This document shows positions 10,692-47,186 of a DNA stretch of 64,000 bases, piece after piece. The stretch is from Dissulfurirhabdus thermomarina (GTDB lineage Bacteria; Desulfobacterota; Dissulfuribacteria; Dissulfuribacterales; Dissulfurirhabdaceae), in contig NZ_JAATWC010000011.1 in NCBI RefSeq assembly GCF_012979235.1, positions 1 to 64,000 on the forward strand. The letters are read 5' to 3'. The translations under genes were made by a program, and so were the position numbers. The first letter of the stretch is position 1; the number at the start of each line of letters is the position of its first letter. The notes below the pieces were generated by a model. It saw only the letters and a list, made by a program, of their open reading frames with translations, was not told the origin of the DNA and did no database searches.

Positions 10692-10693
10692 GC

Positions 10694-28115: not shown

Positions 28116-28146
28116 TGCGGCTCGATGCGGCCACGGGAGGCAGGCG

Positions 28147-28686: not shown

Positions 28687-29506
28687 GCGGTGCGCCGTCC
28701 TGCCGCTGGCGGCCCTGGCGGTGCTGGCGGCCTGGACCCTGCGCTGCCGCCTCGAGACCCGGCAAAACCCGCACGAGGGAAGCATGGACTGCCGCACCTG
28801 CCACATCACCCGCCCGGAACCCGGCGGCCCGAACCTCTTCGCCAGGGACATCGAGGCCCTCTGCCGCGGCTGCCACCCCGACGTCCGCCTCGGGCGGACC
28901 CATCCCGTGGCCGTGGCCCCCACCTTTGCGCTGCCGGCGGACCTCCCCCTGGACTGGAAGGGCGAGATGACCTGCACCACCTGCCACTTCATGCACCTCG
29001 ACACCCGGCGGCCGGCGGGCGGAACGGCCGGCGGCCTCCTGCGGCGCGCCACGCGGGGGCGCCGCTTCTGCCTGGAATGCCACGGGCGGGCCGGGGGGCT
29101 TCCGGGGCGCCGGGGCCACAGCCTGGCCGCCGGCAAGGCCCACGAAGCCCGCGGCTTCCGGGTGACCGCCCCGGGTTCACCCTTGGACCGGGCCTCCGCC
29201 GCCTGCCTCACCTGCCACGACGGATCCATCTCGCCCGATACCGGCAACGTCCGGATCGGCAGCGGGATCTGGCGGCACGGGCCGCCTCCGGGGCGGTCCG
29301 TCAGCCACCCGGTGGGGGTCGACTACCGGCCCGGCCGCCGGCGCGCCGCCGCCCTCCGGCCGAGGGCGGCACTCCCGGCCTACATCCGCCTGCCGGGCGG
29401 AAGGGTGGAATGCCTCACCTGCCACGATCTCTATTCCCGGAACGACCACCTGCTCGTGGTCTCCAACGAAAGGAGCCGGCTGTGTCTCACCTGCCACGAG
29501 AAGTGA
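28673..29506 (+). CDS. heptaheme c-type cytochrome
   Basis: 277 residues. An N-terminal hydrophobic segment (about 8-22), either an uncleaved anchor or a signal peptide, then seven CXXCH motifs: CRTCH, CRGCH, CTTCH, CLECH, CLTCH, CLTCH and CLTCH. The end, ERSRLCLTCHEK, resembles the OmcE-like termini encoded in the same operon. Probably a periplasmic or membrane-anchored relay. SD AAGGAG 10 nt before the ATG. The next gene overlaps its stop (GTGA). Confidence 0.85.
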   Translation: MPAARRCAVLPLAALAVLAAWTLRCRLETRQNPHEGSMDCRTCHITRPEPGGPNLFARDIEALCRGCHPDVRLGRTHPVAVAPTFALPADLPLDWKGEMTCTTCHFMHLDTRRPAGGTAGGLLRRATRGRRFCLECHGRAGGLPGRRGHSLAAGKAHEARGFRVTAPGSPLDRASAACLTCHDGSISPDTGNVRIGSGIWRHGPPPGRSVSHPVGVDYRPGRRRAAALRPRAALPAYIRLPGGRVECLTCHDLYSRNDHLLVVSNERSRLCLTCHEK

Positions 29507-30093
29507 CCGCCGCGCCGCCGCCCGCCGGCCGCCGCCGGACCCGCCTTGTGGACCGGCGCCTCCAGCTCTCCCTCGGCCTCGCCCTGGCCGCCGCCTGCGC
29601 GGCCGTGGCCGCCGTCACGGCCACGGCCGGATACCGGGTGCTGAAGGAGGCCCTGGAGGCGTGCCTCTACTGCCCCCACATCAAGGCGGACCGGTGCGGG
29701 GAGATCCTGGGGCCGGCCTTCTTCCGGGTGAACCTCGCCGCGGCGGCGGCCACGGCCGCGGCGGCGGCCGGGACGGCCGTCTGGCACGCCCGCCGCCTGG
29801 CCCGGTCCATGGAGCGCTTCCTGCCCCACCTGCGCGCCTGGAGCCGGTCGGGCCGCCCGGTGCCGGTCCCGGCGCGACCCGGCGACCCCCTCCTCCCGCT
29901 CCTGGACGACTACAATGGGGCCATGGGGCGCCTGCGGGCCCGGGCCGTCCGGGCCCGGCGGGCCCTCCTGGAGGCGCGCCGATACCTCGCCGCGGCGGAG
30001 GCCGCCCGGAACGACCCGGCCGGCGCCGCCCACGCCGCCCGCCGGCGGCTCGCCGCCGCCGCGGCCGCCCTGGAAGGAGACCTGCCGTCATGA
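29503..30093 (+). CDS. second two-span HAMP-like membrane protein
   Basis: 196 residues. Span 1 about 22-45 (LSLGLALAAACAAVAAVTATAG), a periplasmic loop with CLYCPHIKADRCGE (three cysteines, no heme motif), span 2 about 74-92, then a basic amphipathic HAMP-like region and a long helical Ala/Arg-rich tail. Partly like the protein at 28147, with more cysteines outside. GTG start overlapping the upstream stop, and its own stop overlaps the NHL lipoprotein start (ATGA). Confidence 0.65.
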   Translation: MTAAPPPAGRRRTRLVDRRLQLSLGLALAAACAAVAAVTATAGYRVLKEALEACLYCPHIKADRCGEILGPAFFRVNLAAAAATAAAAAGTAVWHARRLARSMERFLPHLRAWSRSGRPVPVPARPGDPLLPLLDDYNGAMGRLRARAVRARRALLEARRYLAAAEAARNDPAGAAHAARRRLAAAAAALEGDLPS

Positions 30094-31139
30094 TGCGACG
30101 ATTCCGCCGATGGGCCCGGCCCCTCTTGATCGCCGCCGTCCTGGCCGCCTGCGGCCCCATGCAGCGGACCGAGGCGCCGCCCGGTGCCGCGGAACTCCTC
30201 TGGCCGGCACCCCCCGCCGCCCCCCGGATCCGATGGGTGGGGGAGATCCGGGACCCCCGGGACGCCGGCGTCCGTCCCGGCCTCTGGGACCGGGTGAAGA
30301 ACTTCCTGCTGGGGGGGGAGAAGGGTCGGATCGCCCGGCCCTACGGGGTCCTCCACGACGAGGCGGACCGGCTCTTCGTGGTGGACGTGGCGGGACGGGC
30401 CGTCCACTGCATGGACCGCGGCCGGGGCCTGGCCGTCACCGTCCCCCGGCGCCGCGAGGACAACCCCCTCGCCAGCCCCATCGGCATCGCGGAAGACGCC
30501 TCCGGGCGGGTCTTCGTGACCGACTCCGAGACGGGCCGCATCTACGTCTTCACCCCGGGCGAATGGGTGCTCCGGCCCTTCACCCCCTTCCGCCTGGGAC
30601 GTCCCACCGGCATCGCCTGCGGCACGGACCGGGGCCTGATCTACGTGGCCGACACCACCGCCCACGAGGTGGTGGCCCTCGGCCCGGACGGGCGGCCCCG
30701 GTTCCGGTTCGGGGGGCGCGGCACGGGCCCCGGGCGGTTCAACTTCCCCACGGACCTCTGGGTGGACCGGGAGGGGCTTATCTACGTGACCGACGCCCTG
30801 AACGCCCGTATCCAGGTCTTCGACCCCGAGGGCCGGTTCCTCCGCCAGATCGGCCGGCCCGGGAAAAGCCCCGGCTGCTTCGCCAAGCCAAAGGGCGTGG
30901 CCGTGGACGGCGAGGGCCACGTTTACGTGGCCGACGCCCTCTTCGACGCGATCCAGGTCTTCGACCGGGAAGGCCGGCTCCTCCTGGTCTTCGGCGAGAG
31001 CGGCCACCGGCCCGGTGAGTTCTGGATGCCCTCGGGGCTCTTCATCGACGCCGAGGACCGCATCTACGTGGCCGACACCTACAACCGGCGGATCCAGGTC
31101 TTCCAGTACCTGGACCGTGACGCCAACGGGTACGAGTGA
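30090..31139 (+). CDS. second NHL-repeat lipoprotein
   Basis: 349 residues. Lipobox VLAACG near residue 20, then six or so NHL blades such as YGVLHDEADRLFVVDVAG, IGIAEDASGRVFVTDSETG, DLWVDREGLIYVTDALNA and VAVDGEGHVYVADALFD. Paralogue of the protein at 24394, and like it adjacent to a cytochrome with OmcE-type motifs. That suggests each OmcE-type protein has its own propeller partner. ATG overlaps the upstream stop. Confidence 0.86.
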   Translation: MMRRFRRWARPLLIAAVLAACGPMQRTEAPPGAAELLWPAPPAAPRIRWVGEIRDPRDAGVRPGLWDRVKNFLLGGEKGRIARPYGVLHDEADRLFVVDVAGRAVHCMDRGRGLAVTVPRRREDNPLASPIGIAEDASGRVFVTDSETGRIYVFTPGEWVLRPFTPFRLGRPTGIACGTDRGLIYVADTTAHEVVALGPDGRPRFRFGGRGTGPGRFNFPTDLWVDREGLIYVTDALNARIQVFDPEGRFLRQIGRPGKSPGCFAKPKGVAVDGEGHVYVADALFDAIQVFDREGRLLLVFGESGHRPGEFWMPSGLFIDAEDRIYVADTYNRRIQVFQYLDRDANGYE

Positions 31140-31140
31140 T

Positions 31141-32802
31141 ATGGGCCCCATGAAACCGGCACCACCGCTCCGCGTGGTCCTCCTCGCCCTCGGGGCGCTT
31201 CTCGCGGCCGCCGGCCCGGCCCCGGGCGGCGACGTGGTCCACAGCCCCCACAACCTCTCCGCCAGCGGCGGCGGCGGCCTCCACGACCTCAAGGCCCCGG
31301 AGGAGAAACGGGTCTGCATCTTCTGCCACACCCCGCACCACGCCACCCACGTCACCCCGCTCTGGAGCCGCGAGCTCTCCACCCGGGTCTACGACCTCTA
31401 CCGGTCCTCCACGCTCAAGGCCGCCCCGGGCCAGCCCACGGGGGCCTCCCGGCTGTGCCTGAGCTGCCACGACGGCACCATCGCCCTGGGCCAGCTGAAC
31501 GGCAGCTACACCATCAGCACCCTGGGGCCCATCCCGCCCGGCCCCACCAACCTGGACGACCCCGAGCACTCCCTCCGGGACGACCACCCCATCTCCTTCG
31601 CCTACACGCCGGACCTCGCCCTGGGAAACGAGCTGGCGGACCCCTCGCTCCTGCCCGCCCGGGGCATCAAGCTGGAAGGCGGCCGCCTCGAGTGCACCGC
31701 CTGCCACGACCCCCACGACAACCGGTACGGCAGATTCCTGGTGATGGATGACACCGACTCCCGCCTCTGCATCCAGTGCCACGAGAAGACCGGATGGGAC
31801 CAGTCCCTCCATCCCCATCCCCAGGACGCCCTGGCGGCGCCGGTCTTCTGCGAGGCCTGCCACGCGCCCCACAACGCCGACCAGCCCGTCCGCCTCCTCC
31901 GGGGCGTGACGGAACAGGCCACGTGCCTGGCCCGGTGCCACAACGGGAGCGGCAACGGCACCGACGTCTCCGGCCTCTTCGGCGCCGCGGTGGCCTCGTC
32001 CCATCCCCTCGACTACGCCGAGGGGATCCACGACGCGGCGGAAGACCCCCTCGCCGCGCCGAAGCACGTGGAATGCGCCGACTGCCACAACGGCCACAGA
32101 GTCAAGGACCAGGCCGCCGTCCCGCCGGCGGTGGAGGGCGCCCTGGTGGGCGTCTCGGGCGTGGACATCACCGGGTCGGTGGTGGCGGAGGCGAGCCGGG
32201 AGTACGAGGTCTGCTTCCGCTGCCACGCCGACAACTCCTTCGTCTCGTCCACCGCGGTGCCCCGGGCCCTCCAGGAGGTGAACGAGCGGCTCCGGTTCGA
32301 CCCCGCCAACCCCTCCTACCACCCGGTGGCCGCCATGGGGCGGGGAACCAACGTGCCGAGCCTCCGGCCGGAGTACACCACCTCCAGCCTCATCTACTGC
32401 ACCGACTGCCACAACAGCGACCAGAGCGCCAAGGCCGGAGGCGCGGGGCCCGACGGGCCCCACGGCTCCAACTTCCGGCATATCCTCATCGCCCGTTACG
32501 AGGCCGACACCTACCCCCTCCCCTACAGCGAGGGCGACTACGCCCTCTGCTTCCGGTGCCACGACCCGGCCGTGCTCCTCGGCCCGGGATCGGCCTTCCC
32601 CAAGCACGGGCTGCACGTGGTGAGCCGGGGCGTCCCCTGCTCGGTCTGCCACGACCCCCACGGCGTCCCGGTGGCCGACGGCGCGACCCCCAGGGCCAAC
32701 GCCCACCTCGTGAACTTCGACACCCGGTTCGTGCCCTTCGGCACCTACGACGCCCAGGCCCGGAGCTGCACCGTGAGCTGCCATGGCACCAAGTCCTACT
32801 GA
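31141..32802 (+). CDS. dodecaheme cytochrome with OmcE-like N-terminal module
   Basis: 553 residues, with a signal peptide. Residues about 35-220 repeat the OmcE-like order: CIFCHTPHH, PLWSREL, YRSSTLKA, CLSCHDGTIA, DDHPISFAY, CTACHDPHDN and CIQCHEK. Residues about 225-553 add eight more motifs: CEACH, CLARCH, CADCH, CFRCH, CTDCH, CFRCH, CSVCH and CTVSCH, two of them CX3CH. Total twelve. It could cap or anchor a filament of the tetraheme protein through its shared head (inference). Starts 1 nt after the NHL stop; ATGs at 31141 and 31150 are both possible. Confidence 0.85.
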   Translation: MGPMKPAPPLRVVLLALGALLAAAGPAPGGDVVHSPHNLSASGGGGLHDLKAPEEKRVCIFCHTPHHATHVTPLWSRELSTRVYDLYRSSTLKAAPGQPTGASRLCLSCHDGTIALGQLNGSYTISTLGPIPPGPTNLDDPEHSLRDDHPISFAYTPDLALGNELADPSLLPARGIKLEGGRLECTACHDPHDNRYGRFLVMDDTDSRLCIQCHEKTGWDQSLHPHPQDALAAPVFCEACHAPHNADQPVRLLRGVTEQATCLARCHNGSGNGTDVSGLFGAAVASSHPLDYAEGIHDAAEDPLAAPKHVECADCHNGHRVKDQAAVPPAVEGALVGVSGVDITGSVVAEASREYEVCFRCHADNSFVSSTAVPRALQEVNERLRFDPANPSYHPVAAMGRGTNVPSLRPEYTTSSLIYCTDCHNSDQSAKAGGAGPDGPHGSNFRHILIARYEADTYPLPYSEGDYALCFRCHDPAVLLGPGSAFPKHGLHVVSRGVPCSVCHDPHGVPVADGATPRANAHLVNFDTRFVPFGTYDAQARSCTVSCHGTKSY

Positions 32803-32925
32803 ACGGACGTCCGCCGGGAGGCCGGAGAAGATGCGAGGCGGAGGGGGCCCGGGCCGCCGCCGTGACGCACAGCCAGAGGCATCGCCGCGACGCCAATCGC
32901 GGCGCCATGAGAAGGAGGTCGTTCC

Positions 32926-34116
32926 ATGAACCGGTTCCTCTCCCTTACCGTCTTCCTGGCCTTGTCCATGGCCGCGCCCGCCACGGGCGCCGCCCCGGCG
33001 GCCGCCCCCCCCGGGAAACCGGCCGCCGGAACCGCCCGTCCCAGGCCCTGGGAACCCCGGGAACGCGTGAAGATCCGGGACAAGAGCGGCTACTGCATCG
33101 AGTGCCACCGGGAGAAGACGCCGGGCCTCTTCCGGTCCTGGGTGGAGGGCCCCCACGCCCGGATCGGCGTCGGCTGCAACGACTGCCACGGGGCCTCCCC
33201 CTCGGACAAGGACGCCTTCCTCCACCAGCAGCGCTTCTACATCACCACGGCGGTCACCCCCTTCGACTGCGCCCGCTGCCACCCGGACGCCATCCGCGAC
33301 TTCTACAACAGCGGCCATGCCGAGGCCCGGATCCGCCTCGAGAAGATGGGGCCGGACGACCCCCGGTACCCGCTCGTGGCCCCTTACCGGGACGGCGGCT
33401 TCGCCGAATGCGCCGGATGCCACGGGGCCAGGGTCCGCCTCGACGAGGACCGGCGACCCGGCCTCGGCACCTGGCCCAACGCCGGGATCGGCCGCCTCAA
33501 CCCGGACGGGAGCCGCGGCAACTGCGCCGCCTGCCACCCGGCGCACCGCTTCGCCGCAGAGGACGCGCGGCGGCCCGAGGCCTGCCTCGGCTGCCACGAC
33601 GGGCCCGACTACCCCGAGGGGGCCATCTACCTCCACTCCCCCCACGGCCGGGTGGCCGGCATGGGCCGGGCCCGGGACGACCTCTCCCGCCCCGGCTTCT
33701 TCTGCGACACCACCCGGTACGAGGGGCCCACCTGCGGCCTCTGCCACTTCAACGGGGCGGGCCGCGACCTCGTCACCCGACACAACCCGGCATGGCGGCT
33801 CACCAGGGACCTCCTCCACCCGGAGGCGCCCGAGAAGGGCCGGCCCGAGGACCTCCGGGGAAACATGGATCGCGTCTGCCAGCAGTGCCACGCGGCCTCC
33901 GTGGTGAAACGCTTCTTCGCCTCGGCCGACGAGAAGCTCGCCCGCTACCAGTCGGAGACCGTCCGCCCCAGGCTCGCCGGGTTCCGGAAACGGCTGAAGC
34001 ATGCCCGCGGGAAGAAGCGACGGCGCCTGCTGGAGGAATACGGCGCCTTCCTCCGGGAGGCGAAGGCCTTCCGCCTCAACCTCTACATGGGGGTCCACGG
34101 CAGGTCCGGGCGCTAG
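32926..34116 (+). CDS. octaheme cytochrome, hydroxylamine-oxidoreductase-like
   Basis: 396 residues, with a signal peptide (about 1-22). Eight CXXCH motifs: CIECH, CNDCH, CARCH, CAGCH, CAACH, CLGCH, CGLCH and CQQCH. The motif spacing, YNSGHAEARI, SPHGRVAGMGRA and TCGLCHFNG with RHNPAWRLT before the eighth heme recall the HAO-type octaheme family found in many anaerobes, where the enzyme may work as a reductase. I see no obvious tyrosine cross-link site, but that needs alignment. The C-terminus is a basic helix (FRKRLKHARGKKRRRLLEEY). Last gene of the operon; the 123-nt gap before it shows no promoter. Confidence 0.72.
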   Translation: MNRFLSLTVFLALSMAAPATGAAPAAAPPGKPAAGTARPRPWEPRERVKIRDKSGYCIECHREKTPGLFRSWVEGPHARIGVGCNDCHGASPSDKDAFLHQQRFYITTAVTPFDCARCHPDAIRDFYNSGHAEARIRLEKMGPDDPRYPLVAPYRDGGFAECAGCHGARVRLDEDRRPGLGTWPNAGIGRLNPDGSRGNCAACHPAHRFAAEDARRPEACLGCHDGPDYPEGAIYLHSPHGRVAGMGRARDDLSRPGFFCDTTRYEGPTCGLCHFNGAGRDLVTRHNPAWRLTRDLLHPEAPEKGRPEDLRGNMDRVCQQCHAASVVKRFFASADEKLARYQSETVRPRLAGFRKRLKHARGKKRRRLLEEYGAFLREAKAFRLNLYMGVHGRSGR

Positions 34117-34574: not shown

Positions 34575-37500
34575 ATGAGGAGGAAGAGAGGAAGGCAGTG
34601 CCTCGTCCCGGCCGGGATGGCGCTCGCCCTGGGCCTGGCGTTCTCCATGCCGCCGCCCGGCGCCGCCATGGCCGCCGTCCCCGAGCACGCGCACATCGTA
34701 CTCCGGGACCACCTCGGAAACCCCATCAGCCCGTCCGCCGCCACCGACAACGCCTTCAGCGTGAAGGGGACCTGCGGCTGCTGCCACGACGGCACCAACG
34801 GGCTCCTCTCGTACGACGAGTTGGAGCGCCACTCCTACCACGCCCAGCTCGCCGCCAACGAGATCCGCGGCTGGAACGCCTGGAACCCGGACTCCCCGGA
34901 CAAGTTCCGGAGCGGTCCCGCCGCCAAGGGGAAGAACTGGGTCCAGAGCCCCGGCCACGTGGGGAAGTGGTGACCGCCGTCGGCGCGCCAGATGGCGAGG
35001 CTGTTCCTGGACGGAGCAGGATCTTCCTACAACGCGACCACGGCCACCTACCTCGACAACCCCTTCACCACCATGACGCCGTACGACTACGGGAGCCTCC
35101 TGGAGTTCCAGCGCCGGGTGGACAACTCCATCCCCGGCCAGATGCGGGACTGCGGTGAATGCCACGCCGGCGGCGGGGCCATGGAGTACGTGCCGGCGCC
35201 CACGCCCGGCGCCCGGGTGCCGCTCCGTGACATCGCCACGGCCGACGTCAACGGGGCCGGCCCCATCACCGCGGCCAACGTGACGGCCTTCAACTACTAC
35301 GTGGACATCTACGACGACGACGGGGACGGCAACCGGTCCGAGGTCCTCTACAACGACTTCACCCAGACCGGGGTCCTCGAGTTCGACTGCCTCCTCTGCC
35401 ACCTGGAGGGTTACGACTGGGAGGCCCGGAAGGAGGCCGTCCGCCACGGCAACTTCGATGCCTCGCGCACCGTGGGGGCCGGGCTGGGGATCCTGGCCGG
35501 CACCAACGGCCGGAGCGTGGTCTACGATCCCTCCCTGGTGGAGGACAACGGGACCGTGCTCAAGCTGGGTCTCTCCGTGGCGGCCAGGATCATGCCCACG
35601 CCGCCCACGGCCAACTGCGCCTCGTGCCACTTCGACGCCCACCAGGTGGACTGGAAGAAGCGCGGCGACGTCTGGGCCGGAAACGCCCTGAACGAGGTGC
35701 ACCTGTCCATCGGCTGCATGGGCTGCCACAAGCGCAAGGACGAGGACTTCTCCAACGTGGGCACCGACGGGGCCCCGTCCAGCACCCTGCTCGGCCAGTG
35801 TGACCCGGCCAAGGGAGACGCCCCGTACAGCTCCCTCTGGAACAAGACCGACAACACCGTGAAGACCTGCGCGGACTGCCACCTCCGGGGCGGCGACGGC
35901 GGCCAGAGCTTCGCCGCGCCGAACCCCGCCAACGCCCACGCGGCGGCGGGGCTCACCGCCAAGGTGTGCCAGGACGGCACCGACGGAGTGGCGGACGCGA
36001 GCCACATCGACATCATCGCCTGCTCGGCCTGCCACGTCCGCAAGCTCAACCTCGGCGGGCCCTTCACCGGGGGTGCCCTGGTGGACGCCACCGGCCCGGA
36101 TGCCGAGGGCCGCCTGGCCGACCACGAGAACCCCTACGTCACCCGCACCATGGAACGCAACGTTGCGGTCTCCTGGTACAAGGGGAGACTCGTGGCCTCC
36201 AACATCCTGACCACCCTCTTCTGGCGGGACAAGAACGACGTGGACTTCGACGCCAACCGCGACGGCCGAGCCGGCGGCATGGACGCCCTCCTGCCCACCC
36301 ACGTCCGGACCATCGACGAGATCTACGGCGTGGGACCGGTCACGGAGGACGGCAACGTCTCCGGTGCCGAGCTCGACCAGCGAATCGCCCAGATCGACGC
36401 CGAGATCGAGGCCCTCACCGGGGTCTCCGGCGCCGCCAAGATCACGCGCCTCTCCTTCATGGCCGTGCCCTTCCGGGTGAACCACAACGTCTCGCCGGCC
36501 TGGGCCGCCTGGGGCGCCGGGGGCTGCGGCGACTGCCACGCCCCGGGGGCCGGCTTCTACAACGGCGCCTACCGCCTCAAGGGCGAGGGGCTCGAGGTGA
36601 GCTTCGGCGGCCAGGTGACGCCCTTCACCAAGGCCAACGCCTTCACCGACCCCACGGACTTCCACCCGAACCTCAAGGACAAGGCCGGGGTCCGCTCCAT
36701 CCCGGTGAAGGCCGCCTTCCAGCAAGGAACCCTCCGCGACGTCGACCGGAGCGAACTCCTCTACGAGAACACCTTCAAGACCCGGAACACCGCCTGGGCG
36801 GACAGCCTCACCAGCGCGCCCATCACCTTCCCCGACGGGACCACGGCCACCACCAAGGGCTGGCTCTTCAAGGTGGAGGCCAAGGACCTCTTCACGGGTG
36901 ACGTGGTGACCCGGAGCAAGATCGTCGGGACCCATGCCGCCAACGTGGACGAGCTGGTGGCGGCCCTCGGCCCGGCCTACACCGACAACCTGCCGGAGTT
37001 CACGGTGACGGCCGACAACGCCACCGGCACCATCACCATCGCGGCGAAGCCCGGCTACCGGGTCCGGCTCCACCCGCAAAGCAGCGCGGGGGCCTTCGGC
37101 ATGGCGGGGGCGGTCTGGACGGACCACCCGGTCACCGCCGTGAACGGCACGGCCTTCGCGGGCCGGGCCGACTGGGTGGCCTACCTCGACCGCCAGAACG
37201 ACCCGGCGGCCGTGGGGATCGGCATCGACCCCGTGGCGGTGATCGCAAGCATCAACGGCATCGTCCCAGATGCCAACGGCACCCCCATCGAGGTGGAAGT
37301 GGGCCAGCCCGTGACACTCGCGGCCGACACCACCGTGAACACCGCCGGCACCTTCACCTACAGCTGGATCTCCAGCGACGCGGCGGGGGAGGTCCTCCCC
37401 GGGGCCACGGTCTCGAAGACCTTCTCCACCGTGGGCACCTGGCTCGTCACCCTCAAGGTCACCGACGAGGAGGGAAAGCTCTCCCAGGTCTCCCAGAAGG

Positions 37501-37808
37501 TGAGCGCGGTGGCGCCGGCACCGGCGGCGGACATCTCCTACGTGGGCACCGCAAGCGGCGTCCAGACCATCCGCTTCGCCAACCTGCCCGCCCACACCAT
37601 GCTCTACATCTTCTGGGGTGACGGGCTGAAGTCACGGGTCTACGACACCACGTCCCCCAAGGACGTGGACCACGACTTCCGCCTCTACGCCAAGTACGAC
37701 AAGGGCGACCACTACGAGTTCAAGGTCACGGCCTACGTCTACGACGGCAGCACCCGGGTGGACGTCAAGCAGGCGGTGATCTCCATACCCAAGGCCGACA
37801 ACCCCTAA
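34575..37808 (+). CDS. selenocysteine-containing octaheme cytochrome 1 with PKD-like domain (reads through TGA)
   Basis: Predicted 1077 residues if TGA 34971-34973 is read as Sec133. The TGA splits two exactly in-frame halves (34575-34970 and 34974-37808). The second half has no ribosome-binding site. N-terminus: good SD, signal peptide, first heme CGCCH (67-71). Around the TGA the frame reads GKW-U-PPSARQ. Then come CGECH, CLLCHLEGYD, CASCH, CMGCH, CADCH, CSACH and CGDCH, giving eight hemes. D359-W-K-K362-R-G resembles the Asp/Lys pair near the active heme of octaheme tetrathionate reductase. From about residue 881 there are two PKD-like beta domains (TFTYSWISSD; FWGDG). It could be called a pseudogene if Sec were ignored, but a paralogue with the same TGA and a Cys homologue argue against that. 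Substrate unknown. Confidence 0.85.
34971..35014 (+). promoter_or_regulatory. selenocysteine TGA with SECIS-like hairpin
   Basis: TGA at 34971-34973, then 16 nt, then a four-base loop AGAT (34990-34993) closed by CGCC/GGCG (34986-34989 with 34994-34997). CCGTC at 34977-34981 can pair with GACGG at 35010-35014 as a lower stem. The distance from the TGA to the loop is identical to that in the second gene and close to the E. coli fdhF SECIS. Pairing by eye; the apical stem is short. Confidence 0.62.
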
Positions 37809-37810
37809 CC
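37215..37810 (+). repeat. 596-bp near-identical repeat, copy 1 (PKD-like cassette)
   Basis: Encodes the whole C-terminal PKD-like region of cytochrome 1 plus the stop. Matches 43323-43918 with a single difference that I can see (A/G near 37250), whereas the heme regions of the two proteins are clearly divergent. The third paralogue carries a more diverged version (46597-47186). Confidence 0.9.
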
Positions 37811-37844
37811 CCGGGCCCTTCTCGACCTGGGTCCCAAACCAGAA

Positions 37845-37873
37845 GGGCCGGGGGGAGTCCCCCCGGCCCTCTT
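37845..37873. terminator. terminator between convergent genes, with competing hairpin
   Basis: GGGCCGGGGGG (37845-37855) pairs with CCCCCCGGCCC (37859-37869) over 11 bp with a 3-nt loop, then TCTTCC. GGCCCTTCT at 37814-37822 can instead pair with AGAAGGGCC at 37841-37849, so two structures are mutually exclusive. Probably a bidirectional terminator for cytochrome 1 and the regulator gene. Confidence 0.65.
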
Positions 37874-37904
37874 CCGTGCAGCGGCCGCCCCGAGCACCAG
37901 GCCC

Positions 37905-38609
37905 TCAGCCCGCCCCCGGCTCCTTCCAGAGGTCCAGGTCGACGAGGCCGATCCGGGCGGCGTAGCGGACGAGCTCCATCTGGCTGTGGACGCCGAGCTT
38001 CCCCATGAGGTTGCTCCGGTGGTTCTCCACGGTCTTCGGCTTGATGTGGAGACGCGCGGCGATCTCCCGGGAGGGGACCCCCTCCACGATGAGCCGCATG
38101 ACCTCCTGCTCGCGGCGGGAGAGGAGGCCGTAGCGGTCGTCCCGCACCCGCGAGGCCCGATCCGGGGCCTCGAGGAGCCGCCCCAGGACCTCCCGGGAGA
38201 CCGCCCCGTCGAGGAAGTGCTCCCCGGCCAGGAGCGCGTCGAGGGCCTGGATGAGCCGTTCGCCCGTGGCCTCCTTCACGATGTAGCCGTGGGCCCCCGC
38301 CCGAAAGGCCGCGGCGATGTACTCGAACCGCCCGTGCATGCTGACCACCAGGATGCGGGCCGAGGGGGCGGCCCGGCGTAGCCCCCCGATGAGCTCGTGG
38401 CCGTTGGCGTCCGGGAGGGCGAGGTCCAGGGTCACGAGGTCGGGACGGAGGGCGGCGGCCAGGTCCAGGGCCTCGCGCCCGGTCCCGGCCTCTCCGGCCA
38501 CCTCGAAGCGCCCGCTCCGCCGGATGAGGGCCTTGAGCCCTTCCCGGAAGAGCGGGTGGTCATCCACCAGGAGGACGGTCGGCTGCTTGGATTCCACGTC
38601 GTTCTCCAC
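37905..38609 (-). CDS. NarL/LuxR-type response regulator
   Basis: 234 residues. Receiver VLLVDDHPLFREGLKALI with phospho-acceptor Asp in LVTLDLALPDANG and Lys in YIVKEATGE. C-terminal LuxR helix-turn-helix LSRREQEVMRLIVEGVPSREIAARLHIKPKTVENHRSNLM. GTG start at 38609, 50 nt inside the kinase gene; a later GTG at 38597 is also possible. With its kinase it sits between two selenocysteine cytochrome genes, convergent to the first and divergent from the second. Confidence 0.92.
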   Translation of the reverse strand: MENDVESKQPTVLLVDDHPLFREGLKALIRRSGRFEVAGEAGTGREALDLAAALRPDLVTLDLALPDANGHELIGGLRRAAPSARILVVSMHGRFEYIAAAFRAGAHGYIVKEATGERLIQALDALLAGEHFLDGAVSREVLGRLLEAPDRASRVRDDRYGLLSRREQEVMRLIVEGVPSREIAARLHIKPKTVENHRSNLMGKLGVHSQMELVRYAARIGLVDLDLWKEPGAG

Positions 38610-40023
38610 CGTTTCTGCGGACGGCCCGGACGGGCTGGAACGGGACCTCCACCGAGACGAGGGTGCCCCCGCCCGGGCGCGAGACCACCCGGAAGCTCCC
38701 CCGGAGAAGATCCACCCGCTCGGCCATCCCGGCGAGCCCCAGGCCGAAGCGGGCCTCCCGGGAAGCGGCCGCCACGTCGAACCCCCGGCCGTCGTCCTTG
38801 ACCTGGAGCCGGAGCACCGGGTGCGTCGCCACCATCCGGACGCTGACCCGGCGGGCCCCCGCGTGCTTGACCACGTTGTGGAGCGCCTCCTGCACGATGC
38901 GGAAGAGGTTGATGGCGGTCTCCTCGTCCACCCGGACCCCGGCCATGCCGGCGGTCTGGAAGTCCACCCGCAGCCCGTGCCGCTCCGAGAGCTTGCCGCA
39001 GTACTCCGCGAGTCCCTCCACCAGGCCGAGTCGCTCCACCGCCGCGGGACGGAGGCCGGAAGAGAGCTCCCGCACCGCCCGGATGGAGCCCTCCACGTCC
39101 TCCCGGAGCCGGGCCGCCTGCTCCCCCAGGGGAGAGGCCGCCCCCCCGAGGTCCTCGTGCAACATGTCGAGGCCGATCTTGACGGCGTTCAGGCGCTGGC
39201 CGAGGTCGTCGTGGAGCTCCCGGGAGAGCCGGCGGCGTTCCGCCTCCTGGAGGGTGAGGAGCCGCCGCGACAGCGCCCGGGCGCGCTCTTCCATGGCCTT
39301 GCGAGCGCTGATGTCCCGGGCCACCACCAGCTTGGCGGGCCCTTCCACGCCCGGCATCCGGACGGGAAGCTCGGCCACCGAGAACCAGGCGCCGCTCCGC
39401 CGGTCGCGGCACTCCCAGTGGAAGGCGCCCCCGGGGGTCAAGGTGCCGGGCGGATGGCAGTCGGGGCAGGGCCGCGTCCGCCCCCAGCAGGCCCGGTAGC
39501 AGGGAGACGCGGCCAGATCCGCCCGGGCGTCCTCCTGCATGCGCCGGTTGGCGAAGGCGATCCGGTAGCCCGGGCCCACCACGTAGACACGGTCCTCCAT
39601 GGCATCGAAGAGGAGGGACAGGGTCCGCTGGGAGGCCGCCATGACGTCGGAGATGCGCTTGCACTCCGTGGCGTCGTGGAGGACCCCCATGACGGCGGCC
39701 CCGCCGCCCATGGCCACGCGGCGGGCCCGCACCTCGATCCAGAAGGGATCCCCGCCCCGCCGGCGGGAAGGCTGGCCCCAGGCGACCTCCTCCGAGACAC
39801 CCGACAGGAGCCTGTCGTGGTTCTCCCGGAAGAAATGGGCGCTCGAGGGGTCCGGGTAGACCTCGCCGAGGAAGTCCCGGCCCGCCAGGCAACGGCCGGG
39901 GTCGAGGCCGAAGACCTGGGAGAAACGCGGATTGGCGAAGAGGAGCCGGCCGTCGCGGACCACGTAGAGGCCGTCGGGAAGGCCGTCCGCCACGGCCCGG
40001 AAGAGCGCGTCCCGTTCCGTCAT
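38560..40023 (-). CDS. cytoplasmic PAS-PAS histidine kinase (NarX-type HisKA_3)
   Basis: 487 residues without membrane spans. PAS 1 about 5-125 (LYVVRDGRLLFANPRFSQVFGLDP). PAS 2 about 135-260, which contains a cysteine cluster SPCYRACWGRTRPCPDCH with a CXXCH at its end. HisKA_3 has ERRRLSRELHDDLGQRLNAV (phospho-acceptor His) and the ATPase domain has FRIVQEALHNVVKHA, DDGRGFD and GLGLAGMAERV. It partners the downstream regulator. The cysteines could sense redox state or bind metal; c-type heme is unlikely in the cytoplasm. ATG start at 40023. Confidence 0.9.
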   Translation of the reverse strand: MTERDALFRAVADGLPDGLYVVRDGRLLFANPRFSQVFGLDPGRCLAGRDFLGEVYPDPSSAHFFRENHDRLLSGVSEEVAWGQPSRRRGGDPFWIEVRARRVAMGGGAAVMGVLHDATECKRISDVMAASQRTLSLLFDAMEDRVYVVGPGYRIAFANRRMQEDARADLAASPCYRACWGRTRPCPDCHPPGTLTPGGAFHWECRDRRSGAWFSVAELPVRMPGVEGPAKLVVARDISARKAMEERARALSRRLLTLQEAERRRLSRELHDDLGQRLNAVKIGLDMLHEDLGGAASPLGEQAARLREDVEGSIRAVRELSSGLRPAAVERLGLVEGLAEYCGKLSERHGLRVDFQTAGMAGVRVDEETAINLFRIVQEALHNVVKHAGARRVSVRMVATHPVLRLQVKDDGRGFDVAAASREARFGLGLAGMAERVDLLRGSFRVVSRPGGGTLVSVEVPFQPVRAVRRNGGERRGIQAADRPPGG

Positions 40024-40138
40024 CTCGCCCCGGCGTCTCCTCACCCACCCCAGGACAGTGTGCCCCAAGGCGGCCCGAAAGTCAAAAGGAATGGATATAT
40101 CAGAAAATTTCGCACATTCCGGCCCCTTTTCCCGCCTT

Positions 40139-40172
40139 GCGGGAAATCCCGCCCACCTGGGCCATATACCCC
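40139..40172. promoter_or_regulatory. paired inverted repeats upstream of selenocysteine cytochrome 2
   Basis: GCGGGAAATCCCGC (40139-40152) and GGGCCATATACCCC (40159-40172), centres 20 bp apart (two helical turns), about 200 bp upstream of the sigma-54-type promoter. GGGCCATAT also occurs at 23225. The 671-nt gap 40024-40694 carries no gene that I can support. Confidence 0.42.
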
Positions 40173-40361
40173 GTGATATGCCGCGCCGCAAACGCGATTC
40201 CACCCGCGAGTCACCCCCATCCTTCCCGGGAACCTGGGGCGGTCACCCCATGAAGCTCCGGGCGGCGGCCTTGCCGGCCGGCGGCGGCCGGCCCCTGGAT
40301 CCCCGCGGGGACGGGGCCTTCGAGCCACCGCCCCCCCGGCGGCCGCCGCCGGGTCTGGGGG

Positions 40362-40378
40362 CTGGTACGGCTATTGCC
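40362..40378 (+). promoter_or_regulatory. sigma-54 promoter of selenocysteine cytochrome 2
   Basis: CTGGTACGGCTATTGCC: GG at 40364-40365, GC at 40376-40377, 10 nt apart. One mismatch in the -24 element (T for C) and a perfect TTGC. Start near 40389, leaving a leader of about 300 nt. Confidence 0.68.
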
Positions 40379-40694
40379 TTTACCCTGGACGGCCCTTTCC
40401 CCCGTGATTCCACCGACGGCCGGGGCCGCAACGCCGCCCTCCCCCCATCTCGGGCGGTGCCGCGGGATCGGCCCAGAGGAGGTGATGCACACCGAGTGAT
40501 GCAGCGTGGCGCCGGGCCGCCGGCAGTCGCGCCCCGGCCGGGACGGCGCGGCCCACGGGGTGGATACGCCCCGCCCGCCCGTCCGCCGTGCAGATCATCC
40601 GCGAGTTTCACCGATGAATGGAGGCCGGCCGGCGGCGCCACCGCGAGCGGAGCGCCTTCCGGCGCCGGGCCTTCGGAGAGAGGAGTCAATGGAT

Positions 40695-43600
40695 ATGGAC
40701 ACGAGACGAGGACACCGGGCCTCGGGCCTGTGGCTCGCCGGGAGCCTCCTCGCGGCCTTCGTGCTGGTGGCCGGGACGGCCTTCGCGGCCCATCCCCCCA
40801 TCCAGCTCAAGACCTACGAGGAGCTCGGCGCCATGGACGTCGGCCCGAACATGCCCCTTCCCTACAGCCCGAAGCAGACCTGCAGCACCAGCGGCTGCCA
40901 CGACGGCACCACCGTGGTGAACGGAAAGGTGCTGCTCAGCTACGGCGACATCGAGGCCCATGCCTTCCACTCGCAGCTTGGGAAAGACGAGTGGAAGGAC
41001 ACCGCCGACGGCCAGTTCGACTTGACCGCCAGCAAGCCCTGGAATCAGACCGGGGCCATGTTCGGCAAGTGGTGACCGCCGTCCCTTCGCCAGGTGGCGA
41101 ATTTCATGGATCAGGATCCGGCGACCCCGGGCGTCCAGGACAAGGTCTACGCGGACAACGCGAGCTTCCTGGGCGCCGTGGACATGGCCGCGTGGGACAT
41201 GGCCATGGCCTGCGGCAGCTGCCACGTCGGCGGCGGGTTCGTCGAGAGTGACCGGAACGGCCAGCGGCTCTCCATCCGGGCGCTCACGGACACCACCATC
41301 AACGCCTACATGAACTACGTCTCCGAGGACTGGGACCCGGCCACGGGCCTTCCCAACTTCAGCGTCAAGCGGGCGCCCTGGACCTACCCGGTGGAGCTCG
41401 ACGGCAACACCAGCACCACGGAATGGATGCCCAACGTCCGCGAGATGGACTGCTTCTTCTGCCACCTCGAGGGCTACAACAACATGATGAGCTCGGTCAT
41501 CGTCCAGATGGGCCTCCTGAACGCCGCCCCCATGGCGGGTTCCGGCCTCATGGACATGGCCACGGGCGGCTACAACACGGCCATGGTGGACGCCAACGGC
41601 ACGCTGCTGCCCTGGGTGCTGGACCGGATCAAGGGCACCCCGCCCAGCGACAACTGCCGCCAGTGCCACATCCCGCAGTCCATGGCGACCCTGGCGGACA
41701 TGATGACCAACTTCCTGGCCGCGGCCCCCATGTCGTACAACCCGGCCAATCCCATGTCGCTCACGGGTCTCGAGATGCCGGCCTACGACTTCGACGCACC
41801 GTGGGTGGACGGGACGGGACCGCTCTACTTCAACGCCAGCGACCAGAACGCCATCAAGAAGGCCATGGTGCCCTTCCCGCGCTCCGACTTCTTCAAGCGG
41901 GGCGACATCTGGGACGACGCGAGCCAGGAGGTCCACATCGGGCTCGGGTGCGCGGGCTGCCACATGGACACCGCCTCCCTGAGCCCCGACATGACCCAGT
42001 GCGACCCGGGGAGAGGCTACGGCCGCCTCTCAGGCGTCCGGCCCTCGTCCAGGAACACCGTCAAGCGGTGTGAGCACTGTCACATCACCGGGAAGAACGC
42101 CGACGGCGTGCCCATCCAGACCTTCGGCGCGCCCGACCCCACCCCCGCCCACAAGGCGGCGGGGTTGACGGCCCTCATCACCACGGCCGTGGGCGTCAAG
42201 GACGACGGAAACGGCACCCCCGTGGAATACACCTTCCCGGGCAGCCACCTCGACGTCATCGACTGCACCGTCTGCCACAACCACAAGAAGAGCATGGCGG
42301 TGCGGGCCCTCGACGCCACCAGCGGCAACCGCTACCCCACCATGATCGGGTTCGATCTCTCCAAGGGCATGCTCGGCATGTTCTCCGCGCCGGATCCGTG
42401 GGGGATGTTCGGCGGCGAGCTCCAGGAATGGACCCCGCTCCGGACCTGGTGGCAGAACGGCGACAAGACGCTGCCCGACGGCTCCATCAACACCGCGTGG
42501 CGCCGGAAGATCTACAACATCAACATGATCACCGCGGTGTTCTGGAACAACCGGGACCCCTCGGTGGACGCCAACGGCGACGGCGCCAACGCCACGCCCA
42601 CCAACTTCGACCCGTGGATCCAGCGTGACCTCAAGGCCGGGATGACCTTCGCGGCCAGCGGCTTCGCGCCCATCCCCGTCGGCTTCGGCAGCGATCCTGC
42701 CTACGCCAGCGCCTACGACGCCAACGGCACCTTCACGGGCGCCTGGGACTGGGTCGGCGTCTACGGCGGCAACGTCATCTTCACCCGCCCGGACCAGATC
42801 GCGGCCTACAAGGCCTACCGGACGAGCCTCGGCGGGAAGCCCTGGGACGGCACCGAGCTCCTCTACTTCGGGGCCCCGTTCCAGGTCACCCACAACATCG
42901 CCGACACCAGCCGCTTCGCCCTGGGCAAGCGGCGGGCCGACGGCAGCTACGGCTGCAGCGACTGCCACGCGCCGGGCGCCGGGTTCTTCGACGGCGACTA
43001 CGACATGACCGGAAACGGCGTCAACGCCAGCAAGGTGGGCGCCAACATGATGATGGAGCCCGCCGCCGACTTCGAGGTGACCGGCTACAAGGGGGACCTC
43101 CGGACCGCGTCGGAGCTCCAGACCAAGGACGGCGCGGGTGCCGATCTCCCCTTCGAGGCCAACGTCACCTGCCCGGACAACGACCCCCGCGGTTGCGTCC
43201 AGACCACCGACATGGACCGCGGCGAGGCCCTCTACCCGCACCTGGCGGAGACCGACCCCGCGGGATTTGCGGCCAAGCGGGCCTACCTCACGGACAACGC
43301 CACCATGACGGCGGCCAACTACGGGATCGGCATCGACCCCGTGGCGGTGATCGCGAGCATCAACGGCATCGTCCCAGATGCCAACGGCACCCCCATCGAG
43401 GTGGAAGTGGGCCAGCCCGTGACACTCGCGGCCGACACCACCGTGAACACCGCCGGCACCTTCACCTACAGCTGGATCTCCAGCGACGCGGCGGGGGAGG
43501 TCCTCCCCGGGGCCACGGTCTCGAAGACCTTCTCCACCGTGGGCACCTGGCTCGTCACCCTCAAGGTCACCGACGAGGAGGGAAAGCTCTCCCAGGTCTC

Positions 43601-43916
43601 CCAGAAGGTGAGCGCGGTGGCGCCGGCACCGGCGGCGGACATCTCCTACGTGGGCACCGCAAGCGGCGTCCAGACCATCCGCTTCGCCAACCTGCCCGCC
43701 CACACCATGCTCTACATCTTCTGGGGTGACGGGCTGAAGTCACGGGTCTACGACACCACGTCCCCCAAGGACGTGGACCACGACTTCCGCCTCTACGCCA
43801 AGTACGACAAGGGCGACCACTACGAGTTCAAGGTCACGGCCTACGTCTACGACGGCAGCACCCGGGTGGACGTCAAGCAGGCGGTGATCTCCATACCCAA
43901 GGCCGACAACCCCTAA
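40695..43916 (+). CDS. selenocysteine-containing octaheme cytochrome 2 with PKD-like domain (reads through TGA)
   Basis: Predicted 1073 residues if TGA 41073-41075 is Sec127. The ATG at 40695 is 9 nt after AGGAG; the ATG at 40689 is too close. Signal peptide, then heme 1 as CX4CH (CSTSGCH), then GKW-U-PPSLRQ, CGSCH, CFFCHLEGYN, CRQCH, CAGCH, CEHCH, CTVCH and CSDCHAPGAGFF. D398-F-F-K401-R-G-D parallels the motif in cytochrome 1. PKD-like region from about residue 877, essentially identical in DNA to cytochrome 1. The reading frame is uninterrupted on both sides of the TGA and no SD precedes the second half. Likely exported; function unknown, reduction of a sulfur or nitrogen oxyanion is a guess from the family. 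Confidence 0.85.
41073..41104 (+). promoter_or_regulatory. selenocysteine TGA with SECIS-like hairpin
   Basis: TGA at 41073-41075, 16 nt, then loop AGGT (41092-41095) closed by TTCGCC (41086-41091) and GGCGAA (41096-41101); A-T closure would leave GG as the tip. A G-rich tip at this distance is what SelB recognises in E. coli fdhF. Better paired than the copy at 34971. Confidence 0.68.
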
Positions 43917-43918
43917 CC
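43323..43918 (+). repeat. 596-bp near-identical repeat, copy 2 (PKD-like cassette)
   Basis: Second copy of the segment at 37215-37810. Identity stops abruptly at both ends: upstream the proteins diverge at once, downstream only TAACC is shared. This suggests recent gene conversion or cassette duplication rather than simple ancestry. Confidence 0.9.
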
Positions 43919-43955
43919 AACCTCACGGAAGGGCCAGCACCTTCCTCCAACAGCC

Positions 43956-43987
43956 GGGCCCCGGGGCGATCCCCCGGGGCCCTTTTT
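43956..43987 (+). terminator. intrinsic terminator after cytochrome 2
   Basis: GGGCCCCGGGG (43956-43966) pairs with CCCCGGGGCCC (43972-43982), loop CGATC, then TTTTT at 43983-43987. Confidence 0.92.
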
Positions 43988-44010
43988 CGCCCGGGAGCTC
44001 GGTGGCCCCT

Positions 44011-44026
44011 TGGGTCTTTTGGCCCA
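44011..44026. promoter_or_regulatory. inverted repeat upstream of cytochrome 3
   Basis: TGGG-N8-CCCA at 44011-44026, about 130 bp upstream of the sigma-54-like site. A half-site GGGCCATTT follows at 44032-44040. Weaker than the repeats before the other genes. Confidence 0.25.
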
Positions 44027-44141
44027 GCGGCGGGCCATTTCGCTATGGGAAACGGCCGCCTGGCGGCACCCGGCGGCGCGAGGGCCCCGCCAGCAACCTA
44101 GATCAACTTGAAATAACAAGCATATTCTCCAACGCCGACTT

Positions 44142-44157
44142 CGGCGCCCTTCTTGCT
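44142..44157 (+). promoter_or_regulatory. sigma-54-type promoter of cytochrome 3
   Basis: CGGCGCCCTTCTTGCT: GG at 44143-44144, GC at 44155-44156, 10 nt apart, with a perfect TTGCT and two mismatches in the -24 element. Start near 44168, 50 nt before the ATG. Confidence 0.48.
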
Positions 44158-44216
44158 TTCCCCGGGGCGAGCCGGTGCGGGCGCCGGGCCCCACCGGGAA
44201 GGGAGAGGAGCGCGCG

Positions 44217-47186
44217 ATGGCGAAGAAGATCCTTTTTCTCCTTGTGCTGGCCTGCTCGGTCCTTCCGCCGGCGAGCCGGCTGGCTCTGGCCGACCATCCC
44301 GTCTACGGGGAAGACCCCCGGATGCCCGACCAGATCTACCTCGTCGGCAGGGGCGGCGCCCTGGTGAGCCTCGACGATCCGGCCGACGGGACCTACGACG
44401 GCCTGCCCCCCTACGACCCGGAGGCCACCTGCCGCGGCTGCCACGGTTCCATCTTCAACAACGAGGTGGCCAACTTCCATGCCTGCCTCGGGTGCAACGA
44501 CCTGGTGCTCCCCCGCGGCACCCTCGACCCCGCCCGCCCGTGGATCTTCGGTCCGAGGAAGTTCGGCGGGTGGTGCCCCACCGGTTTCCGGCAGTGGGGC
44601 GACATCACCAAGACCTTCGCCAGCGAGGCGGAGTTCCTGGCCCAGGTGGACATGGGCTTCTACGACTTCATCCTCCAGTGCGGCACCTGCCACGTGGGCG
44701 GCGGCCCGGGGGTGCGCCACCCGCTGACCCTGGCCGAGCACGACGACGTCAACCGGGACCTCTTCTCCCTCACCGTCCAGAACTACTACGTCAAGGACGG
44801 CAACGTGACCCTGGCCAACTGGGTGCAGCTCGGCGGGGGCGGCGCCGGGACCCTGAAGCTCGACTGCCTGGTCTGTCACCTGGAGGGTTACGACATCCTG
44901 GCGAGGAACGAGCAGATCGTCCGGTACGAGAAGTTCAAGAACGCCCCGACGCTGGGGGCGGGCCTGGCCGCCATGGACCCCGCCGCGCCGGACGGCGCCA
45001 GCATGGCCTACGACGCCTTCTACGTGGCGCGCAACGGCAGCAACCACCTCTACCTCGGGCGGAACTTCCTCCAGCGGATCAAGCGCACACCGCCCTCCGC
45101 CAACTGCCTGAACTGCCACATGCCCAGCGTGGTGGAGGGGGAAGACGCGGCGGTCTCCGGTGACGCCTGGAAGCGGGAATTCTTCAACACCGGCACGGTC
45201 CCCAGCGACGACCCCGAGAACCCCGATCCCCTGGCCGCCGCCAACAGGCGCCCGGCCGGCTTCCGCAACGACTTCCTCAAGCGGGGTGCCACCTGGCGCA
45301 CCGACGAGGTGCACAAGTTCATGGAATGCAGCGGCTGCCACCTCCAGACCGCCAAGTTCCAGACCGACAACGCCACGGCCCCCGGCTACCTCCACAGCCC
45401 GGGCAAGGGGTACGACCCCTTGAAGGATCCCATTGGCGGCGAGGGAACGGTCAAGTTCTGCACCGACTGCCACGTCCTCTTCGGAGACCTCGACGGCGAC
45501 GGGGTGAAGGACATCGAGATCTTCGCGCCGCCGGACCCGCGGCCGCGGCACGCGGCGGCGGGGCTCTCCGCGGCCATCATCGGGACCGCCCGCCGGATCG
45601 GGGCCAACGGGCAGGAGGAGACCTTCCGCGGCAGCCACATCGACGTGATCGCCTGCACCGTCTGCCACGTCTGGAAGCAGTACACGGCGGCCCGGGCCTA
45701 CGACTTCAGCACCGGCGGCCGCTTCTACACCTTCGACGGGAACCCGCCGGACGTGGCCGGCGGCCCGGAGACCGTGACCATCGCCTACACCTGGCGCGAG
45801 AACACCCCCGTCCGGGTATTGCCCGACGGCTCGCCGAACCCCATGTGGCGCCGGCAGGTCCATCCCTTCAACTACGTCACCTCCATCTACTGGAACAACA
45901 CGGGCACCAAGGACGCCAACGGCGACGGCTTCCGCTCCGGGGACTCCAACGGCGGCACCACCGTCCTCCTCGACCCCTTCTTCGGCCGGGTGGCCCGCTC
46001 CCACTTCCGTTACGACTTCGTCAACACCGCCAACGACCGGGTGCCCAGCGGGCTGGCGGGGGTCCCCGCCTACGACGAGCGCAGCGAGTGGGCCATGGCC
46101 AACGCGGCCGGCGGGGTCATGTTCACGCGGCCCGGGGAGATCGACGCCTACCAGGCCCTTCTCTCCGGCGAAGACCCCGGCTACGCCCCCCAGCTCCGGC
46201 TGGAGGCGAAGCCCTACCTCCTGGTCCACAACGTGATGCCCATCAAGGGGCCCAACGGGCACGTCCTCGGCAAACCCGTCCGCGACGACGCGGGCAACAT
46301 AGTGGCCTACGGCTGCGGCGACTGCCACGGACCCTCCGGGGTCGTCTACAACGGGGAGGTGAACCTCCTCGGCAAGGGCATCGACATCGCCACCGGCGCG
46401 GAGGCCCCCCTCGCGCTCTCCTGGAGCGATCCGGGCGACGTCTCCGCCGAGGCCGAGTACTGGGATGCGTTCGGCAACCGCCACGTGCTGGACTGCACAT
46501 CGGGCAGCACGCTCCGGAACCCGAGGCGCTACGAGCTGTTGGGATTGTCCGCCACCGAGGCGGCCGGCCTGGACCTAGTCACCGCGGCGGACAACGGGAT
46601 CGGGGTGGACCCCGTGGCGGTGATCGCGAGCATCAACGGCACCGTCCCCGACGGGAGCGGCACCCCCATCACGGTCCGGGTGGGCGAGCCCGTGACGCTC
46701 GCGGCGGACACCAGCGTGAACACCGCCGGCTACATCGACTACGGATGGATCTCCAGCGATGCGGCGGGGGAGGTCCTCCCCGGGGCCACGGTCTCGAAGA
46801 CCTTCTCCACCGTGGGCACCTGGCTCGTCACCCTCAAGGTGACCGACGAGGAGGGAAAGCTCGCCCAGGTCTCCCAGGAGGTGAACGCCGTCAACCTACC
46901 GGCGGCGGACATCTCCTACGTGGGAACCGTAAGCGGCGTCCAGACCATCCGCTTCGCCAACCTTCCGGCCCACACCATGCTCTACATCTTCTGGGGGGAC
47001 GGGCTGAAGTCACGGGTCTACGACACCGTCTCACCCAAGGACGTGGACCACGACTTCCGCCTCTACGCCAAGTACGACAAGGGCGACCACTACGAGTTCA
47101 AGGTCACGGCCTACGTCTACGACGGCAGCACCCGGGTGGACGTCAAGCAGGCGGTGGTCTCCATCCCCAAGGCGGACAACCCCTGA
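44217..47186 (+). CDS. octaheme cytochrome 3, cysteine paralogue of the selenoproteins
   Basis: 989 residues, uninterrupted. Signal peptide, heme 1 CRGCH, a degenerate CLGCN, then GGW-C120-PTGFRQ where the other two have the TGA. Then CGTCHVGGG, CLVCHLEGYD, CLNCH, CSGCH, CTDCH, CTVCH and CGDCH (eight CXXCH in all). D352-F-L-K355-R-G is conserved. PKD-like domains from about residue 794 are related to, but not identical with, the other copies. GGGAGAGGAG precedes the ATG. Motif order (Cys/Sec before heme 2, DxxK after heme 4) fits the octaheme tetrathionate reductase family. This gene fixes the reading of the TGA codons in its neighbours. Confidence 0.9.
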   Translation: MAKKILFLLVLACSVLPPASRLALADHPVYGEDPRMPDQIYLVGRGGALVSLDDPADGTYDGLPPYDPEATCRGCHGSIFNNEVANFHACLGCNDLVLPRGTLDPARPWIFGPRKFGGWCPTGFRQWGDITKTFASEAEFLAQVDMGFYDFILQCGTCHVGGGPGVRHPLTLAEHDDVNRDLFSLTVQNYYVKDGNVTLANWVQLGGGGAGTLKLDCLVCHLEGYDILARNEQIVRYEKFKNAPTLGAGLAAMDPAAPDGASMAYDAFYVARNGSNHLYLGRNFLQRIKRTPPSANCLNCHMPSVVEGEDAAVSGDAWKREFFNTGTVPSDDPENPDPLAAANRRPAGFRNDFLKRGATWRTDEVHKFMECSGCHLQTAKFQTDNATAPGYLHSPGKGYDPLKDPIGGEGTVKFCTDCHVLFGDLDGDGVKDIEIFAPPDPRPRHAAAGLSAAIIGTARRIGANGQEETFRGSHIDVIACTVCHVWKQYTAARAYDFSTGGRFYTFDGNPPDVAGGPETVTIAYTWRENTPVRVLPDGSPNPMWRRQVHPFNYVTSIYWNNTGTKDANGDGFRSGDSNGGTTVLLDPFFGRVARSHFRYDFVNTANDRVPSGLAGVPAYDERSEWAMANAAGGVMFTRPGEIDAYQALLSGEDPGYAPQLRLEAKPYLLVHNVMPIKGPNGHVLGKPVRDDAGNIVAYGCGDCHGPSGVVYNGEVNLLGKGIDIATGAEAPLALSWSDPGDVSAEAEYWDAFGNRHVLDCTSGSTLRNPRRYELLGLSATEAAGLDLVTAADNGIGVDPVAVIASINGTVPDGSGTPITVRVGEPVTLAADTSVNTAGYIDYGWISSDAAGEVLPGATVSKTFSTVGTWLVTLKVTDEEGKLAQVSQEVNAVNLPAADISYVGTVSGVQTIRFANLPAHTMLYIFWGDGLKSRVYDTVSPKDVDHDFRLYAKYDKGDHYEFKVTAYVYDGSTRVDVKQAVVSIPKADNP

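Follow-up and report, generated by a model that had tools for sequence, protein, structure and literature searches.

Selenocysteine (Sec) at a catalytic heme would bring the chemistries of selenium and heme together in a single natural active site, an unusual arrangement. Does a cluster of cytochrome genes in the bacterium Dissulfurirhabdus thermomarina encode such a site? The window, by which we mean the whole stretch of 64,000 nucleotides analysed here, belongs to contig 11 of a 2.46 Mb genome that is 99% complete. Three tandem octaheme cytochrome genes, A, B, and C, lie on one strand of it (Table 1), and their products each end in a PKD domain and a common C-terminal module. Between heme motifs 1 and 2, A and B carry a single in-frame TGA; C has TGC there. 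The heme domains of B and C are about 36% identical to that of A in protein, and B displays only seven CxxCH motifs, its heme 1 being CX4CH. The heme-4 motifs start at residues 348 (A), 323 (B), and 297 (C), and each of them is followed by D-x-x-K-R-G. An initial annotation had already listed a Cys or Sec before heme 2 and D-x-x-K-R-G after heme 4 as common to the three proteins, and the reading frames bear this out; its D359/K362 and D352/K355 are correct, and its D398/K401 of B become D400/K403 when counted from the first ATG. The range it gave, 35641-45320, takes in the three D-x-x-K motifs and the TGA of B and leaves the TGA of A (34971) upstream.

Table 1. Features of the window that bear on the three octaheme cytochromes.
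Feature	Position	Strand	Remark
Barrel-like, 7-heme, NHL, 10-heme, and 8-heme genes before A	26151..34116	+	order kept in L026
A, octaheme Sec cytochrome, PKD domain C-terminal	34575..37808	+	
A, in-frame TGA (predicted Sec133)	34971..34973	+	motif GKW-U-PPS
A, SECIS-like hairpin	34986..34997	+	4 pairs with stem CGCC/GGCG and loop AGAU; most relatives have a stronger one
A, heme-2 motif C193-H197	35151..35165	+	by order the counterpart of catalytic heme 2 in OTR
A, D359-x-x-K362	35649..35660	+	aligned with OTR D150/K153
A, C-terminal module	37215..37808	+	99.8% DNA identity to that of B
LuxR-type response regulator	37905..38609	-	between A and B
PAS histidine kinase	38560..40203	-	between A and B
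B, octaheme Sec cytochrome, PKD domain	40689..43916	+	heme 1 as CX4CH
B, in-frame TGA (predicted Sec129)	41073..41075	+
B, SECIS-like hairpin	41086..41101	+	6 pairs, loop AGGU
B, heme-2 motif C175-H179	41211..41225	+
B, D400-x-x-K403	41886..41897	+	398/401 counted from ATG two codons later
B, C-terminal module	43323..43916	+
C, octaheme paralogue, Cys at Sec site	44217..47186	+
C, TGC (Cys120) at Sec site	44574..44576	+	no AGUU/AGGU hairpin
C, heme-2 motif C155-H159	44679..44693	+
C, D352-x-x-K355	45270..45281	+
C, C-terminal module	46596..47184	+	91% DNA identity to that of A

The reading of TGA as Sec draws on a family that extends well beyond the window. A profile built from the three heme domains has matches in 87 of the 395 genomes of the phylum, and a scan with the heme domains returned 14 named loci, including metagenome-assembled genomes called Deltaproteobacteria, Hydrogenedentota, Omnitrophota, and Chloroflexi; a scan with the full proteins, for which C-terminal peptides were picked as queries, returned no loci. 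We aligned 83 open reading frames and left out 7 that were partial, misaligned, or doubtful. Of the 76 usable rows, 45 have TGA at the Sec site, 14 have Cys there, and the remaining 17 have some other residue. Exactly one TGA lies between the first and last CxxCH in 42 of the 45 Sec rows; the count is 0 in the other 3, which we put down to a heme 1 that appears not to be written CxxCH. The family tree requires 7 changes among the states Sec, Cys, and other, and 3 when only Sec versus Cys is considered. The genome carries SelB (378 bits) and tRNA-Sec (75 bits), as well as two molybdopterin oxidoreductases that each contain one TGA. Two marks of a bacterial selenoprotein are thus present, namely an in-frame TGA with Cys homologues and, in the genome, SelB together with tRNA-Sec.

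A hairpin behind the TGA forms a further line of evidence. Bacterial SECIS elements typically have AGGU-type loops. In most Sec rows, CGCC-AGUU-GGCG or a longer form of it stands 3' of the TGA, at either of two set distances. When the best hairpin of each row is taken, it forms at least 5 pairs in 42/45 Sec rows, 4/14 Cys rows, and 9/17 other rows, and a four-base AGUU or AGGU loop (counted by eye) occurs in 36/45, 0/14, and 2/17, respectively. The mean fold z against synonymous recoding is -1.79 for Sec, 0.12 for Cys, and -0.66 for other rows. The hairpin is thus a property of the family and of B, and is weak in A; taken singly, those of A and B do not exceed dinucleotide shuffles. Four rows have Ser at the Sec site as TCA, one base away from TGA, and two of these (L104 and L107) keep the AGUU hairpin with 8 pairs, perhaps as a relic of Sec. 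This comparative evidence shows a predicted readthrough of TGA as Sec across the A/B family.

To what are these proteins related? The initial annotation had likened their D-x-x-K to that of octaheme tetrathionate reductase (OTR; TIGR04315; PDB 1sp3, from Shewanella oneidensis), in which residues 64, 150, and 153 of the 1sp3 chain are C, D, and K. This proposal holds: profile alignment and its shuffle control place D-x-x-K as homologous to D150/K153 within the same order of eight hemes. Already in phmmer, A matches 1sp3 at E 0.022 with D359/K362 on D150/K153. Comparison of the family profile with that of OTR in local mode gives probabilities of 98.1-99.6%, and hhalign at a low posterior cut-off sets 8 hemes on 8 hemes and D/K on D/K with 5/5 master rows; in global mode, some hemes are mispaired in 3/5 runs, and in one of those three D/K are also misplaced. 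The hhalign score of 195 compares with a mean of 47.5 and a maximum of 68.5 in 60 shuffles that kept the heme motifs and shuffled the other columns. The eight c-type heme motifs thus stand in register, with heme 1 of B as CX4CH, and A, B, and C all carry the D-x-x-K of OTR after heme 4. In addition, six non-motif His appear in the same order in the family and in OTR: one follows heme 1, one lies between hemes 4 and 5, hemes 5 and 6 are each followed by one, and hemes 7 and 8 are each preceded by one. These match 6 of OTR's 7 such columns, the N-terminal one being variable in the family. At A residue 409 and its counterparts in B, L026, L045, and L048, the residue is Cys (in QCDPxKG or QCDPGRG); 55/59 Sec/Cys family rows and OTR have His, and a change of heme ligand is possible at this position. 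Against the curated TIGR04315 cut-off of 375, A scores 25.1 bits, and B and C have no match at E up to 1. The three proteins are relatives of OTR, and by the curated cut-off they are not members. They also differ from OTR in being longer, with the PKD domain and C-terminal module. Judged by its alignments, the window family is a genuine family of Sec proteins and a relative of OTR.

The initial annotation went further and proposed that the Sec may replace the active-site thiol of an OTR-like enzyme. In OTR, Cys64 and Asp150 lie in the active-site pocket. In both OTR and the window proteins, a thiol or selenol is found in the interval from heme 1 to heme 2; the position differs. Wherever we followed the Sec of the window family, namely in A, in L056, and with three masters at three settings each, it did not align with Cys64. 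It falls instead in an insertion, behind heme 1 and the His that follows that heme, and ahead of heme 2. The spacing from Sec or Cys to heme 2 is 60 residues in A, 46 in B, and 35 in C, and 29-41 in 64/76 family rows, versus 10 in OTR; none of A, B, and C has the residue ten positions before heme 2 within the N-N/S-F/Y-C motif (NNF-C) of Cys64. AlphaFold models were unusable for locating it, with mean pLDDT of 37.1 for the heme domain of A (11 rows) and 31.1 for the core of L028 (11 rows).

The proposed replacement does appear in true OTRs. Matches to TIGR04315 over its cut-off occur at 77 places in 68 of the 395 genomes, the D. thermomarina genome having none, and 30 of the 77 contain one TGA (counted by eye). 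We examined the TGA position in 13 of these 30. The OTR comparison comprised 30 loci, from which L085 was left out because another reading frame had been picked, leaving 13 Sec and 16 Cys. The TGA occupies the Cys site, ten residues before heme 2, in 13/13 examined Sec-OTRs, and the 16 others have Cys; in phmmer, the TGA of L076 falls on Cys64 of 1sp3. K is kept in 29/29 OTR rows and D in 25/29, with E in four Cys rows; all 13 Sec-OTRs have both D and K. A hairpin of at least 5 pairs follows in 13/13 Sec-OTRs versus 3/16 Cys-OTRs, and the hairpin scores of the two groups differ (p 2.5e-6, not corrected for relatedness). The fold z of the whole stretch does not separate Sec- from Cys-OTRs (p 0.15), nor does the presence of SelB in their genomes (11/13 versus 15/16). 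Some bacteria thus seem, from these alignments, to put Sec in place of the OTR thiol Cys64. A small detail accompanies the change: N-W-C-R-C precedes heme 2 in 11/13 Sec-OTRs (L072, L082, L086, and others), Cys-OTRs have E/W-P-R-C, and the bases behind this difference sit in the Sec-OTR hairpin, as if the SECIS element had shaped the protein sequence before heme 2.

Do Sec or Cys, D, and K travel together in the window family? D is kept in 55/59 Sec/Cys rows versus 4/17 others, and K in 59/59 versus 11/17; the four Sec/Cys rows that lack D are one Sec row with N, two Cys rows with G, and one Cys row with E. Fisher p values are 2.9e-8 for D and 5.7e-5 for K, and 7.5e-7 and 6e-5 at 80% clusters. 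The tree, in turn, contains only about four changes between thiol or selenol and other residues, and a test on independent pairs found 3 pairs (D the same way 1.5, opposite 0.5; K 1.1 and 0), which is not significant. Because so few independent events underlie it, we do not lean on this covariation; its direction agrees with a common site and is no proof of one.

The surroundings of the genes speak to where such proteins might work. The five genes upstream of A are 33-57% identical to their counterparts in L026, where their order before the A homologue is kept; this conserved order suggests that A works with an outer-membrane electron conduit. "Barrel" is our reading of the sequence of one of these proteins, for which neither Pfam nor NCBIfam gave a match at E 0.001. 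The eight-heme cytochrome at 32926-34116 has weak hydrazine-dehydrogenase and c554-like matches and is 49% identical to its L026 counterpart. On a Chloroflexi contig, an OTR-like octaheme gene (L034:7113-8570) lies directly 5' of a distant family member (8483-11290).

We favor, with moderate confidence, a reading in which A, B, and C share an ancestor with OTR and in which Sec or Cys acts together with Lys, at heme 2, on a small oxidised substrate. OTR heme 2 is described as catalytic and Lys-ligated in the accessible part of PMC11024163. A, B, and C would be exported octaheme c-type cytochromes whose heme chain would pass electrons to heme 2. The Lys of D-x-x-K would be the axial ligand on one side of this heme; the Sec of A and B, or the Cys of C, situated on the stretch that links heme 1 to heme 2, would reach the open side of heme 2, where it may help to break a bond in the substrate. 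This substrate would most likely be a sulfur (or selenium) oxyanion or a polythionate; the presence of dsrA in the genome (567 bits) makes sulfur chemistry no more than plausible. Sec might provide faster attack and an oxidised form that is easier to reduce. More speculatively, part of OTR and a sister family may form a large class of natural selenol-heme enzymes, with Sec on the open side of a Lys-ligated c-type heme, perhaps binding the iron during turnover; such enzymes would reduce oxyanions of sulfur or selenium on the cell surface or close to it. We put this forward as a tentative extension.

Other readings place the Sec elsewhere in the chemistry, or deny the relationship altogether. 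The protein could be OTR-like and mainly an electron carrier, with Sec as the axial ligand of another heme, as part of a metal site, or as redox partner of another Cys, and not catalytic at heme 2. The Sec spacing unlike that of OTR and its failure to align favor such a role, as do the conserved non-motif His, six versus seven in OTR, which leaves one ligand unassigned, the Cys that A, B, L026, L045, and L048 have where others have His, and the place of A behind a gene set resembling an outer-membrane conduit. Against this stand the K kept in every one of the 59 Sec/Cys rows and the Sec found at Cys64 in true OTRs, and we regard a non-catalytic Sec as unlikely. The likeness to OTR could, alternatively, reside in the heme motifs alone, the proteins belonging to some other multiheme family with unrelated chemistry. 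Every family score does fall below curated cut-offs, and A also matches the MmcA model, TIGR04314; but the hhalign score lies far above the motif-preserving shuffles with D/K in register, and MmcA is itself, according to the accessible part of PMC11024163, an OTR relative without the heme 2 and Lys that the family keeps. This makes the heme-motif reading improbable.

That the TGA is a real stop, as translation table 11 would have it, implies that a one-heme fragment precedes a seven-heme protein, or that the nonsense change is recent. The same site is TGA in 45 rows, however, and Cys in others; a hairpin follows it, and the genome has SelB and tRNA-Sec. We give this reading hardly any weight.

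Where do these proteins stand among known systems? As far as NCBIfam searches showed, the family has no model of its own. MmcA is a weak match to A (E 2.2e-9) and is rejected as its home: MmcA, a seven-heme protein, lacks heme 2 and its Lys by the same portion of PMC11024163, whereas the window proteins have both. ExtKL of Geobacter (NF040886), as presented in the available portions of PMC5877670 and PMC1914089, is a c-type cytochrome with a predicted Sec, like A and B, but has five hemes where the window proteins have eight; A, B, and C have no NF040886 match at E up to 1, and we reject this placement too. Contig 1 of the genome (641428-642222) contains ExtKL-like stretches below the NF040886 cut-off and without a TGA. 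A 2026 review (PMC13188914), in its available part, treats TIGR04315 as a selenoprotein annotated in GenBank without a Sec motif and includes ExtKL; "cytochrome" occurs there three times, in two places, neither of which names the window family. The literature consulted, in the parts available, neither lists this family nor says that Cys64 is replaced by Sec, and a search for Lys153, Cys64, and Asp150 returned nothing on OTR. The natural role of OTR is uncertain; if bacteria do exchange Cys64 for Sec, the residue is very likely catalytic, and the chemistry of the enzyme becomes directly testable.

Finally, a side observation concerns the C-terminal ends of the three genes. Over their last 594 bases, A and B share 99.8% identity, compared with the 36% or so of the heme domains in protein. 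This likeness may reflect module exchange, gene conversion, or an effect of assembly; the module is present in three copies only in the genome, those of A, B, and C.
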